From a virus, in IMG/VR virus record IMGVR_UViG_3300021419_000042, positions 1-39,974 of that record: a DNA stretch of 39,974 nucleotides. The stretch is one strand, 5' to 3'. A program made the position numbers and the translations under genes. The notes beneath the pieces were generated by a model. That model saw only the letters and a list, made by a program, of their open reading frames with translations. It was not told the DNA's origin and searched no databases. This document shows positions 29,324-38,186 of this stretch, one piece after another (positions within the stretch are counted from its first letter, which is position 1; each line of letters opens with the position of its first letter).

Positions 29324-29542
29324 CTATCGGTTGAGCTTTTCTAATACTTCCGCACAATCCACGCACAGATTGGTATCGATGGCCTGCAGCCTTGCCGATG
29401 GGATCTGGTGCGAACACTCGGCACAGATCCCCCCGGCTTCAAGCGCTTGCTGTGCACGCTGCAGCCGCGCATCATCGATGCGACGAAAGGCCTCTGACAT
29501 CGATTCCTCGAGATAGGCTGCAGCAAGGTCTGCCACATCCAT
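29324..29542 (-). CDS. TraR/DksA-type zinc finger protein
   Basis: The 72-residue protein ends in a Cys4 zinc finger (CAECSHQIPSARL then CVDC, about residues 40-64), which is typical of TraR/DksA proteins. Full DksA is about 150 residues with a coiled-coil N-terminus; this is the short TraR form found on phages and plasmids. Such proteins bind RNA polymerase in the secondary channel and change host promoter use. It follows the CII-like gene with a one-base overlap in TGATG and precedes the primase gene. Confidence 0.85.
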   Translation of the reverse strand: MDVADLAAAYLEESMSEAFRRIDDARLQRAQQALEAGGICAECSHQIPSARLQAIDTNLCVDCAEVLEKLNR

Positions 29543-30042
29543 CAGGAGCGCACCTGGGCAACGCGGCGATCACTGGCGAACTTGATAACACCCATCACGA
29601 CACCGAGCAGGCGGCTCAAATCAAACTGCAACTCATCCCATTCAGCATCATCAATCACGCCATCATCACCGAGCGAAGTCTCAAGGCCTGCACTGGCCAC
29701 GCTGACCTTATTCAGCAATTCATTGAAAAGCCGAATGAGCGACTCATCGCTGTATTCGGGATCTACCAGCTGAAACCAGCCAGCGCCTGGGAACAGCGGC
29801 ATGAGTGAGTCGAGTATTCGAGGATCTTGCGTGATTTGGCAGATCTGCTTGAATTGCAGAAAGGTAGGATGGCGCTCAGGCTGATTGGGATCGAGATTAT
29901 TGGAAAAGGCAGTGGCTGACTTATTGCACTCCATGGCTAGTGCCTCGATCCCGTAATCATTGGCCGCGTGATAGAGCGCAATCTCTAGCGGGTGCACACG
30001 CTCTTTGTTCTTTTGTATTTCCGTGGTAGATCGTCGTGGCAT
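29542..30042 (-). CDS. CII-like regulatory protein (Phage_CP76 type)
   Basis: The 166-residue protein resembles the CII-type regulators (CP76) that lie after cro in many prophages. Its N-terminal half has HPLEIALYHAANDYGIEALAMECNKSATAFSNNLDP, a helix-turn-helix-like region, and HPTFLQFKQICQITQDPRIL, both typical of the family. The C-terminal half (about 95-160) is acidic. The ATG at 30042 with GGAG 9 bases upstream fits best. In lambda, CII activates cI and int promoters; the same role is inferred here from position, not from binding sites. Confidence 0.78.
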   Translation of the reverse strand: MPRRSTTEIQKNKERVHPLEIALYHAANDYGIEALAMECNKSATAFSNNLDPNQPERHPTFLQFKQICQITQDPRILDSLMPLFPGAGWFQLVDPEYSDESLIRLFNELLNKVSVASAGLETSLGDDGVIDDAEWDELQFDLSRLLGVVMGVIKFASDRRVAQVRS

Positions 30043-30058
30043 GTGTAAATTCTCCAGG

Positions 30059-30310
30059 TTATCCCCTGTCGCTGGCCGGCATATTGTTTTGTAATCGATG
30101 GCAAGCAACACGAATCAACAACTCATTGAGCTCAGGCTTTATTTCATCCAAAGGGAACTTCTCAGGTGAATCCACCACCATGGCCACGGCGATGCGATCA
30201 GGCACAGCGCGCTTTCCGGTTTCGATTTCTGATACCTGAGTCTGGCCAAGCCCGAACAGTCGGCCAAACTGGCGCTGGCACAGCCGTAATTGGTGGCGAT
30301 AGCGCTTCAT
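30059..30310 (-). CDS. Cro-like XRE regulator
   Basis: An 83-residue helix-turn-helix protein (residues 9-36 have LCQRQFGRLFGLGQTQVSEIETGKR, the classic helix pair). It is divergent from cI with the operator region between. The ATG at 30310 has AAGAG 6 bases upstream; starts further upstream at 30331 would nearly coincide with the transcript start of the extended -10 promoter at 30342-30350. It probably represses cI and controls the leftward early promoter, as Cro does. The residues after the helix-turn-helix are short and acidic. Confidence 0.82.
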   Translation of the reverse strand: MKRYRHQLRLCQRQFGRLFGLGQTQVSEIETGKRAVPDRIAVAMVVDSPEKFPLDEIKPELNELLIRVACHRLQNNMPASDRG

Positions 30311-30341
30311 TGGATGCTCTTGAGTTTCCATATCGGCGCAA

Positions 30342-30402
30342 ATTATCACATATTGAGATATTTACAATGTGTCACTGCAAAAAAATCACAATTTGCTGAT
30401 TC
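30342..30402. promoter_or_regulatory. OR-like operators with leftward early promoter
   Basis: A 21-bp near-palindrome at 30342-30362 has half-sites ATTATCACA and TGAGATATT around TAT. A second, weaker one at 30382-30402 has AAAATCACA and TGCTGATTC; an element between (30361-30381) has TTTACAATG and CACTGCAAA. Centres lie about 19-21 bases apart. Read on the minus strand, TGTGATAAT (30350-30342) forms an extended -10 for the cro-cII-primase-Q operon and overlaps the first palindrome, so repressor binding would block it. Confidence 0.7.
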
Positions 30403-30437: not shown

Positions 30438-31079
30438 ATGGAATTAGAACCCTGGCAACACAGAGTGAAAGAAGTCATGCGCCGCAAAGGCCTGACTCAA
30501 GTGGACGTGGGCGAGAAGATTGGCCATGGCCAGTCGTGGCTGAGCAATAAGCTCACCAGCAAACGCGGCACCAAGCTCGAGGATATCTCCAAGATTGCAA
30601 AAGCAATCGGAGAGAGCGACAGCTTTATACTCACCGGTCAGCGCTCCAAGCCAGGTAGCACCGACGATGCCGGCCATCACATCCCCGTGATCGGCTGGGA
30701 TGATATTGCCGATTGGCCGAATAATGGCGAATTTGCACAGATCAGCGAATGGATCGCGCCCTCTAGCCCCGAGGACATCAGCCACGCTAGTTTCGGACTT
30801 CGCGTGAATGACAACTCCATGAGCTCAACCAGTGGCAGGCTTTCAATTCTCAAAGGATCCAAGGTGATAGTGTCACCAGCAGAAGATGTCGAGCCCGGCT
30901 CCATCGTGCTTGCTCTGGTTGCAGGCAGGCCAGTGATCCGCACCCTGGATAGCGATGGCATTGATCGCTATCTGCAGCCACACAATGAGCTATACCCTCC
31001 CCGGCCCGTTGATTCTGACGTGAGAATTGTCGGCCAAATCGTCGAAATCAAGCTGAAACTCAGCGACCTCCAGAAGTAA
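30438..31079 (+). CDS. cI-like repressor with S24-type domain lacking catalytic Lys
   Basis: The 213-residue repressor has an N-terminal helix-turn-helix (residues 18-41) and a LexA/S24-type C-terminal domain from about 80, with the nucleophile in NDNSMSS (Ser127) and the conserved tail RYLQPHNELYPPRP then RIVGQIVEI. The expected general-base lysine is Arg168 (GRPVIRTL), and the usual cleavage Ala-Gly reads Ala91-Asp92 (IADW). An Ala78-Gly79 also lies upstream. Such a repressor may not autocleave, so induction would depend on an antirepressor. It is flanked by operator palindromes on both sides. Confidence 0.92.
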   Translation: MELEPWQHRVKEVMRRKGLTQVDVGEKIGHGQSWLSNKLTSKRGTKLEDISKIAKAIGESDSFILTGQRSKPGSTDDAGHHIPVIGWDDIADWPNNGEFAQISEWIAPSSPEDISHASFGLRVNDNSMSSTSGRLSILKGSKVIVSPAEDVEPGSIVLALVAGRPVIRTLDSDGIDRYLQPHNELYPPRPVDSDVRIVGQIVEIKLKLSDLQK

Positions 31080-31090
31080 CTCTCACACCT

Positions 31091-31154
31091 TTGTTGCCTA
31101 ATATCTCAATATGAGATATTTTCTGCCGACAACAATATCACATTTTGTGTTATT
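31091..31154 (+). promoter_or_regulatory. OL-like operators and rightward early promoter
   Basis: A 21-bp perfect-arm palindrome (AATATCTCA at 31100-31108, TGAGATATT at 31112-31120) and a second, one-mismatch one (AATATCACA at 31134-31142, TGTGTTATT at 31146-31154) match the OR half-sites. TTGTTG (31091-31096) and GATATT (31115-31120) with an 18-base gap form a rightward promoter, with TG one base before the -10 (TGAGATATT); it overlaps the first palindrome and would be silenced by repressor. It drives the KilAC-ParB-xis-int operon. Confidence 0.75.
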
Positions 31155-31199: not shown

Positions 31200-31535
31200 A
31201 TGCCAGAACCAAGCGAGATGCAGATCAAAGATGCAGCCAAGCAGCTCGGCATAGGCAGCAAAACCCTTTTCAAGCTCCTGCGCCAGCGTGGCGTGCTGAA
31301 TAGCAACAACATCGCCAATCGCGCCTATGTCAGTGCCGGCTATTTCCGTATCGATGGCCGCAGCTACACCCAGAGAGCCGAGGTTTACCAGATCCAGAGG
31401 CAATACCAAGTCACGCTAGTCACCGATGCCGGATTGAGCTTCATCCAAGAGCTCATCAACCAGGAGGAAAAACGCCATGAACAGAACAAAAGACGCAGCC
31501 AGAGGCCTAAACTTTCAAGCGCAGCTGGTGCCTGA
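31200..31535 (+). CDS. KilAC/antirepressor-type protein
   Basis: The 111-residue protein resembles KilAC (ANT) domains: IKDAAKQLGIGSKTLFKLLRQRGVL at residues 9-33, then YVSAGYFRIDG and VTLVTDAGLSFIQELI at about 72-87. Full antirepressors usually have an N-terminal partner domain; here the KilAC unit stands alone. GGAGG lies 4 bases before the ATG. It is the first gene after the OL-like operators. An antirepressor that binds cI is a natural guess given the cI changes; it is not proved. It overlaps the next gene by 59 bases. Confidence 0.82.
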   Translation: MPEPSEMQIKDAAKQLGIGSKTLFKLLRQRGVLNSNNIANRAYVSAGYFRIDGRSYTQRAEVYQIQRQYQVTLVTDAGLSFIQELINQEEKRHEQNKRRSQRPKLSSAAGA

Positions 31536-31819: not shown

Positions 31820-33784
31820 ATGAACTCTATCACTGCCAAACTCACGTCACTGATCCCAGGCATGGATTCAATCAAAGACGCCAATCACCTGGACACAATT
31901 CAATATATCCCATTCAGCCAGCTTGTGGCCTCTGCATCCAATGTACGCAAGACGCCCACTGATCCGCGCAGTGACAGCGAACTCCGCGCTTCCATCGAAA
32001 CTCAGGGCTTGCTGCAAAATCTGGTAGTGACACCAACGCCAGATAGTCCAAGCCGCTATGAAGTCACCGCTGGAGGCCGGCGCCTGAAAATCATCGGGCA
32101 AATCATTGCAGACAAGACGCCAGGATGGGATGAGCACTATCCGCTGCCCTGCCTAATCAAGAACAGCGCCGATGCCGCCAATGAGGCCTCGCTCACTGAG
32201 AACATCTGCCGCGAAGAAATGCACCCAGCCGATCAATTCGATGCCTATCTGAGACTGCACCTGCAATACGGGTTCACAGTTGAAGAAATCGCCAAGCACT
32301 TTGGCAAAAGCGTCAGCGATGTACGCAAGGCCTTGCTGCTCGGCAGAGTCGCTGAACCGCTGCGCGATGAATTCCGTGCCGGCAAGATTGGCTTGGACGA
32401 AATGACCGCATTTACTTTGTGTGAAGATCTGAATAGGCAGGTGGAAGTGTATGCGATGCTCAAGCGCGAGAATCGAGTGTTTTCATCGAATATCCGCAAG
32501 GCCCTTCGCCAGTCCGAGCTGACCGCCAATCACAAGCATGTGAAATTTGTCACCCTCGAGCACTACCTCGAGGAAGGCGGCACTGTCTCAGAAGATATTT
32601 TCATGAATGAGCAGTACATATTGCAGCCAGAGCTCATCGATCGGCTCATGATTGACAAGCTCGAAGCCGAGCAAACTGAGCTACTGAAATTCTGGAAATG
32701 GGCACATATTGAGACTGGCTTCCAATCCTACGATGTCGCCAACTATGTGCAGCTGGAAGGCACACCGAATGCTCCCAAGGAATTGACCGATGAGCTGGAG
32801 GCGCTCAAGGCACAAGAGGCTCGAATAAATGAAGCCTATGACAGCGAAACAGAAGATCAGCTTTCTGAGCAAGACATTGAAGCAGCCGGCAACATTGAGG
32901 AATTGGTTATAGAGCTGCAGGAAAAGATCGAACGCTATCAAGACTTCACGGATGAGCAACAGGCAGTCGCTGGCTGTGTGCTGTCAATCAGTGATAAAGG
33001 TGAGCTTGTTATCTATAAAGGCCTGCAGCGCAGCGAGGACATCAAGGAAGCTGCCAGCGATAGCAACGCAACTGACAGCAAGAGCAGCTCGGCACCAGCC
33101 AGCAAAGCCAAGTCAGACGATTACAGCCAATCACTGCGCGATGATATCTCCAAGTATCGCCATGTGATTGCCAAACGGGCATTGATCAAATCAGCCAAGG
33201 GCGATGAGATCAACTTTGCAGTGAGCCTCCTGCACTTCCAGATCTGCTATGAGGCTCTGGCCTCCTACGGCTACTGGAGCAAGCCATTTAGCATCCAGCT
33301 ATGCAGCACCGATGAAGATACCAGCAAGAACGACATCAAAGAGCAGCGTGCATTCAAGGAATTCAAGGAACGCTGCCATGATCTTGAGCTGAACTGGATC
33401 GAGAAAGATCCCGCGAAGGCCTTTCAGAACTTCTGCGAACTTGATCAAAACGCTGTTGAGTCGCTACTGGCTTACAGCGCAGCTACCACGCTAAACCGCA
33501 CCTATGCCGGCGAGAAAAACGACTGGCTAGGACTGGCACTACAGCACTACCAGGTCAACCTCTCCAGCTTCTGGATCCCCACCAAAGAAAACTTCTTCTC
33601 TCGAGTCACCAAGGCAGTGCTGCTGAAAGCTGGCGCCTTTATGAGCGGCGATCAAAATTGGGGCAAGCGCCATGAGGGAGAGAAAAATGGAATTCTGGCC
33701 GAGCAACTCAGTGACCGTGCTGCCGAGCTGGCCAACTCATCACCACAGCTTTGCTTTATGCCCGAGGGCATGAGCACAGAATAG
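31820..33784 (+). CDS. ParB-like nuclease/partition protein
   Basis: The 654-residue protein has an N-terminal ParB/Srx domain (about residues 30-130, with SQLVASASNVRKTP, LRASIETQGLLQNLVVTP and VTAGGRRLKIIGQI) then the helix region around ENICREEMHPADQFDAYLRL and a helix-turn-helix (FTVEEIAKHFGKSVSDVRKALLLGRV). The remaining ~400 residues are helical. The ATG at 31820 is chosen because the family begins near here; an open frame back to 31577 overlaps another gene. No ParA accompanies it, so it may act as a transcriptional or DNA-processing factor instead of a partition protein. Confidence 0.85.
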   Translation: MNSITAKLTSLIPGMDSIKDANHLDTIQYIPFSQLVASASNVRKTPTDPRSDSELRASIETQGLLQNLVVTPTPDSPSRYEVTAGGRRLKIIGQIIADKTPGWDEHYPLPCLIKNSADAANEASLTENICREEMHPADQFDAYLRLHLQYGFTVEEIAKHFGKSVSDVRKALLLGRVAEPLRDEFRAGKIGLDEMTAFTLCEDLNRQVEVYAMLKRENRVFSSNIRKALRQSELTANHKHVKFVTLEHYLEEGGTVSEDIFMNEQYILQPELIDRLMIDKLEAEQTELLKFWKWAHIETGFQSYDVANYVQLEGTPNAPKELTDELEALKAQEARINEAYDSETEDQLSEQDIEAAGNIEELVIELQEKIERYQDFTDEQQAVAGCVLSISDKGELVIYKGLQRSEDIKEAASDSNATDSKSSSAPASKAKSDDYSQSLRDDISKYRHVIAKRALIKSAKGDEINFAVSLLHFQICYEALASYGYWSKPFSIQLCSTDEDTSKNDIKEQRAFKEFKERCHDLELNWIEKDPAKAFQNFCELDQNAVESLLAYSAATTLNRTYAGEKNDWLGLALQHYQVNLSSFWIPTKENFFSRVTKAVLLKAGAFMSGDQNWGKRHEGEKNGILAEQLSDRAAELANSSPQLCFMPEGMSTE

Positions 33785-37256: not shown

Positions 37257-38186
37257 ATGCGCATTGCCCTTTACGATGTAGACAGCAAGATCCCAAATCT
37301 GGCATTGATGAAACTCTCTGCCTGGCACAAATCGCGTGGCGATACGGTTGAGCTCTATTCGCCACTATTCAGCGATCAATATGATCGGATCTACGCCAGC
37401 AAGATTTTCACATTTTCAGATAGCTCCATGATCAATCCAGAAAAAATGATTGTGGGCGGCAGCGGCTGGGATATGAGCAAGCAGCTGCCAGCTGCAGTTG
37501 AAGCAATGGAACCTGACTACTCGATATATCAATACCCGCACAATATAGGCTTCACAATGCGAGGCTGCAGATTGCGCTGCGAGTTTTGCATTGTGCCGCA
37601 GAAAGAAGGAAAGCCAGTCGGCGCGAACACTATCACCGAGATCTGGACGCAGCGCAGCAGCGACTTCATTGTGCTGCTTGATAATGATTTCTTTGGCAAT
37701 CCACAGTGGCCAGAGCGGATTGCAGAGATCCAGGAGCACAATCTGCGCATCAATTTCAGCCAAGGCCTGAATATCAGAAACATCCGGCCAGAGCAGGCCG
37801 AGGCCATTGCCTCGATTCGATTCCGAAACATGACTGGCAATAAAAAGCAGGTGCACTTTGCCTGGGATGATCCTCGGCATGAGAAGCTAATCCACAAAGG
37901 CATCCAGATCTGCATCGATGCCGGCTTAAAAACGTACCAGATGGCCTTTTATGTACTCATAGGATTCCACTCAACCGAGCAGGAGGATCTGCACCGCGTT
38001 GAGCTGCTCAGGGAATACGGCTGCGACCCCTACGCGATGCCTTACAACAAAGAGGATCCGTATCAGCATCGATTCACCCGCTGGGTGAATCACAAAGCCA
38101 TTTTTAAGTCGATACCCTGGCGCGACTACAAACACAACGTAAAGCCAAAAAAGAGCACCCAATTTCAGAATGCACTGGATATTTGA
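37257..38186 (+). CDS. Radical SAM protein
   Basis: The 309-residue protein has the CxxxCxxC cluster motif at Cys104, Cys108 and Cys111 (GCRLRCEFC), which holds the 4Fe-4S cluster that activates S-adenosylmethionine. The N-terminal ~70 residues look like the start of a small B12-binding-like or nucleotide-like domain. Later segments (VLLDNDFFGNP, INFSQGLNIRNI) fit the radical SAM barrel. There is no SPASM or other C-terminal cluster. The substrate is unknown; DNA or RNA base modification is possible but not shown. Confidence 0.88.
   Translation: MRIALYDVDSKIPNLALMKLSAWHKSRGDTVELYSPLFSDQYDRIYASKIFTFSDSSMINPEKMIVGGSGWDMSKQLPAAVEAMEPDYSIYQYPHNIGFTMRGCRLRCEFCIVPQKEGKPVGANTITEIWTQRSSDFIVLLDNDFFGNPQWPERIAEIQEHNLRINFSQGLNIRNIRPEQAEAIASIRFRNMTGNKKQVHFAWDDPRHEKLIHKGIQICIDAGLKTYQMAFYVLIGFHSTEQEDLHRVELLREYGCDPYAMPYNKEDPYQHRFTRWVNHKAIFKSIPWRDYKHNVKPKKSTQFQNALDI

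Follow-up and report, generated by a model that had tools for sequence, protein, structure and literature searches.

The window analysed, an IMG/VR virus record of 39,974 bp, encodes the lysogeny repressor (CI/C2-type) of a temperate phage. On the evidence of its sequence, the S24 domain of this repressor is very probably catalytically dead and retained for dimerisation and repression, and RecA-stimulated self-cleavage is not expected. The general base position is occupied by Arg168 and the P1′ position of the hinge by Ala91, and the protein is therefore probably unable to cut itself after DNA damage. Most likely the domain, in which the LexA/CI fold is kept, would serve dimerisation and cooperative operator binding. 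Self-cleavage chemistry would be dead with these two residues in place, RecA-stimulated cleavage at physiological pH would be absent, and the repressor would bind the palindromes that flank its gene on both sides.

The repressor gene and its surroundings

The gene and its frame, which is open over the full length, were found as the original prediction had placed them. Domain searches recovered Peptidase_S24 (PF00717, 7.5e-15) and HTH_3 (PF01381), both at or above cut-off, with the N-terminal HTH at approximately residues 9-60; residues 6-205 matched phrog_4 (4.6e-27). An Xre-type HTH is joined to a C-terminal S24/LexA-like domain, as in repressors of the CI/C2 type. The AlphaFold2 model (mean pLDDT 79, pTM 0.55) had its best Foldseek matches in lambda CI and LexA, and UmuD′ and 186 CI were matched as well.

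The setting is that of an immunity region, with a divergent cro gene, a CII-type gene, and palindromic putative operators (Table 1). Allowing up to two mismatches, a 17-bp operator-like pattern occurred four times in the window versus 1.4 times expected, and four copies were reached in 5 of 100 shuffles. The three best copies (starting at 30344, 31102, and 31136) all flank the repressor gene. A simple scan for sigma-70 promoters across the immunity region gave none. In most loci of the phage group a stand-alone KilAC-domain protein is encoded 3′ of the repressor and in the same orientation, whichever state the dyad is in.

Table 1. Features of the immunity region, with positions in the 39,974-bp window
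Feature	Position	Strand	Evidence
CII-like (Phage_CP76) regulator	29542..30111	-	PF06892 (1.7e-11), phrog_101
Cro-like HTH protein, divergent; start codon not fixed	30059..30349	-	Profile matches
Operator-like pseudo-palindrome TATCACATATTGAGATA, between the divergent cro-like gene and the repressor	30344..30360	.	Palindrome search
Repressor gene, 213 aa: HTH, hinge, S24/LexA-like C-terminal domain	30438..31079	+	Domain, alignment, and model evidence
Ile90-Ala91, codons ATT GCC	30705..30710	+	Aligns with the Ala-Gly scissile pair of lambda CI, P22 C2, and LexA
Ser127, codon TCC; nucleophile position kept	30816..30818	+	Alignment, codon reading
Arg168, codon CGC; catalytic lysine position	30939..30941	+	Alignment, codon reading
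Operator-like palindrome TATCTCAATATGAGATA, directly 3′ of the repressor and ahead of the KilAC gene	31102..31118	.	Palindrome search
Operator-like pseudo-palindrome TATCACATTTTGTGTTA, 34 bp from TATCTCAATATGAGATA	31136..31152	.	Palindrome search
KilAC-domain protein, 111 aa; opens the rightward early operon	31200..31535	+	PF03374 (E 2.6e-12); phrog_63 and phrog_130 (Ant); kept in relatives

The terminase matched those of Pseudomonas phage KT1 (48%) and Marinobacter phage PS3 (45%), and the primase matched phage PS3 and Pseudomonas prophages (41-44%); from these matches a gammaproteobacterial host is likely. The early operon also encodes a large ParB-like protein (31820-33784, phrog_7783) in a phage that encodes an integrase as well. 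This protein has only weak relatives among known phages, and its use as a query for sister phages gave zero matches.

Catalytic residues and hinge

RecA-stimulated self-cleaving repressors carry a Ser-Lys dyad and an Ala-Gly (or X-Gly) hinge pair; here Ser127 is accompanied by Arg168 in place of the lysine, and the hinge pair is Ile90-Ala91. In phmmer alignments to lambda CI chains, Ser127 paired with S149 and Arg168 with the catalytic K192, which bears out the predicted presence of the nucleophile and the predicted replacement of the expected lysine by arginine. No lysine aligned to the base position in the sequence and profile alignments. The original prediction had named an alignment with a lysine in the active site as evidence against it, and none was obtained. 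The Arg168 codon differs from either lysine codon at all three bases (at least three base changes), so that neither an error in sequencing nor a single mutational step accounts for it.

The hinge (P83-VIGWDDIAD-W93) aligned without gaps to P22-type hinges (P...AGxW, e.g. PLISWVSAGNW), and in a MAFFT alignment (A3) the near-invariant alanine of the hinge fell on residue 90. Ala111-Gly112 of lambda corresponds to Ile90-Ala91, the P1′ glycine being replaced by Ala91. The scissile pair had been predicted at Ala91-Asp92; this register, one residue off, was rejected on both alignments. The loss of the glycine itself was correctly called, and with Ala91 at P1′ the substance of the prediction therefore holds. 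As far as alignments can tell, the absence of both the base lysine and the P1′ glycine supports the proposed loss of self-cleavage chemistry.

Related prophages and known repressors

No close relatives of the repressor were found in viral contigs, genome contigs, phages, plasmids, and 369 genomes of one class, and the direction of change was therefore judged from more distant kin. Likewise, the viral-contig, phage, and genome collections searched contained no near-identical phages sharing its Arg and Ala codons. We counted 81 related prophage immunity loci with an S24 repressor near a related primase; Ser, Lys, and an X-Gly site were kept in 77 of them, which points to a loss in the present phage, the ancestral repressor most likely having been cleavable. 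Together with P22-type C2, these loci supply the relatives with Lys and Gly at the matching places to which the original prediction had looked for the direction of change. The repressor itself formed a lone long branch in the tree (best identity 33%), which limits how far its own history can be traced.

In a survey of 71 dereplicated S24 repressors, gathered partly with queries lacking the glycine site, 14 had arginine at the lysine position; the glycine site was absent from 13 of these and kept in one. Where the dyad was intact (n = 50), the glycine site was present in 45 and absent in 5, versus 1 and 20 where the dyad was broken, serine changes included (n = 21). Approximately eight changes were placed on the tree for Arg and approximately eight for site loss. 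A tree-based independent-pair test yielded just two such pairs on branches with good support, which does not suffice for significance; the association of dyad loss with glycine-site loss among these phylogenetically non-independent sequences is therefore suggestive. In the related phage group, a Pseudomonas aegrilactucae prophage repressor (L101, 2871-3620) independently acquired both changes, alanine for glycine and arginine for lysine, passing from LG/K to LA/R inside an intact LG/Lys clade.

Two further kinds of S24 repressor were observed. One (L195, 37-576) combines an intact Ala-Gly pair and Ser with an arginine base whose codon, AGA, is a single substitution away from Lys AAA, possibly a recent loss. 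Others, in which the nucleophile serine is changed to Thr or Ala (L202, L200, L211, L214, L219, L230, L203, L224, and L119), constitute a further degenerate class, and several of them sit in genomes of ~1.5-2.6 Mb.

Of 5426 complete E. coli genomes, 1036 (19%) carried a repressor with the AA/Ser/Arg state, which was constant across 13 distinct sequences. This E. coli repressor (pMS20655A locus; L120/L122) resembles the present one in having Ala-Ala at the site, a retained Ser, an Arg base, and the motif PVIRxL, but overall identity is 28% and its neighbours are ydaT- and dicB-type genes. RefSeq lists it under the names 'LexA family protein' or 'S24 family peptidase'.

Repressors of this non-cleavable kind have been described before (186 CI, mEp021 Rep, N15, and others), and the present protein is probably one more; the type is commoner than the original prediction supposed. 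Among phage CI proteins surveyed earlier, 210 of 271 were scored as putatively non-autoproteolytic (PMC10432266). Comparison with individual systems showed the following: (i) C2 of P22/phage L and lambda CI share with our repressor the domain order, the divergent Cro-like gene, the fold, and a serine at the Ser127 position, but have Ala-Gly and Lys, and are cleaved with RecA (PMC3121763); (ii) in coliphage 186 CI the base position is occupied by Arg152 and a canonical active site is absent (PMC12984324), and its structure (PDB 2FJR), a Foldseek match, similarly combines a LexA-like C-terminal fold lacking a usable active site with an Arg base, although part of the nucleophile segment is missing there, whereas Ser127 and the segment are kept here; and (iii) mEp021 Rep of the mEpimmI coliphages, among the best phage matches (30% identity), is also an S24 repressor that lacks Ala-Gly, and UV does not induce mEp021 lysogens (PMC11893012), but Rep retains the lysine (PTFKQL) where the present repressor has arginine.

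In routine annotation, S24 repressors are labelled 'S24 family peptidase' or 'LexA family', and SOS inducibility is presumed. Judged by three residues, the present repressor and many relatives, a common E. coli prophage type among them, probably do not cleave themselves, a point that matters when forecasting which prophages respond to DNA damage. More tentatively, and with considerable doubt, replacement of the P1′ glycine (often by alanine) paired with replacement of lysine by arginine might be a path that cleavable CI/C2 repressors have taken repeatedly to a permanently locked state, the arginine holding the hinge or active site closed. A sizeable share of proteobacterial prophages, among them the type carried by one E. 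coli genome in five, would then be uncoupled from direct RecA cleavage.

Alternative readings and route of induction

Retention of Ser127 counts against a dead domain. Taken with the fold match to lambda CI and LexA and with a P1′ residue that is still small, it would fit a repressor with residual self-cleavage, either slow or directed to Ile90-Ala91 or Ala78-Gly79, in which Ser127 works with Arg168 or a different base and which permits a weaker lambda-like induction. LexA with arginine at the lysine position is reported to undergo slow cleavage at high pH, and the activity of the present repressor need therefore not be zero. Residual cleavage is nevertheless very unlikely, as no lysine aligns at the base position, dyad loss and glycine loss coincide across the survey set, the Ala78-Gly79 pair lies upstream of the conserved Pro83 and outside the aligned cleavage-site position, and 186 CI, with its Arg base, is without a canonical active site (PMC12984324).

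If self-cleavage is dead, SOS induction would require another protein, e.g. a LexA-controlled antirepressor, or the prophage may lack SOS induction altogether, which has been reported for mEp021-type phages. Because antirepressors of this kind exist for 186, N15, and Gifsy (PMC3121763), a repressor that is not cleaved may still be SOS-induced, and non-cleavage alone would not imply absence of SOS induction. An equivalent of Tum, the LexA-controlled antirepressor of 186, was not found in the present phage. The window contained no LexA box (CTGT-N8-ACAG) and no LexA-like sites with at least 12 of 16 matches, nothing rising above chance, though the LexA consensus of the host may differ and the record may be incomplete. 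The adjoining KilAC gene, whose product has the antirepressor C-terminal domain PF03374, could in principle encode an antirepressor that replaces self-cleavage and inactivates the repressor on induction. This is unlikely, if somewhat less so than residual cleavage: operator-like palindromes lie upstream of the gene, which would therefore be repressed in the lysogen; KilAC occurred in 76-78 fetched sequences, mostly loci of intact-dyad repressors; and the protein corresponds to the C-terminal domain only of known Ant proteins. The gene was rejected as a substitute inducer for want of specificity: relatives with intact-dyad repressors have it too.

That Arg and Ala are accidents of a sequencing error or of a pseudogene in a decaying prophage is hardly credible. 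The sequence is an IMG/VR contig, and the integrase gene is truncated by its right end, but the repressor frame is open throughout, CGC lies three base changes from either lysine codon, and both replacements are seen again in other prophages, without variation across the E. coli set. Near the integrase end, a radical SAM domain protein (37257-38186, phrog_9298) is encoded beside an HNH endonuclease.
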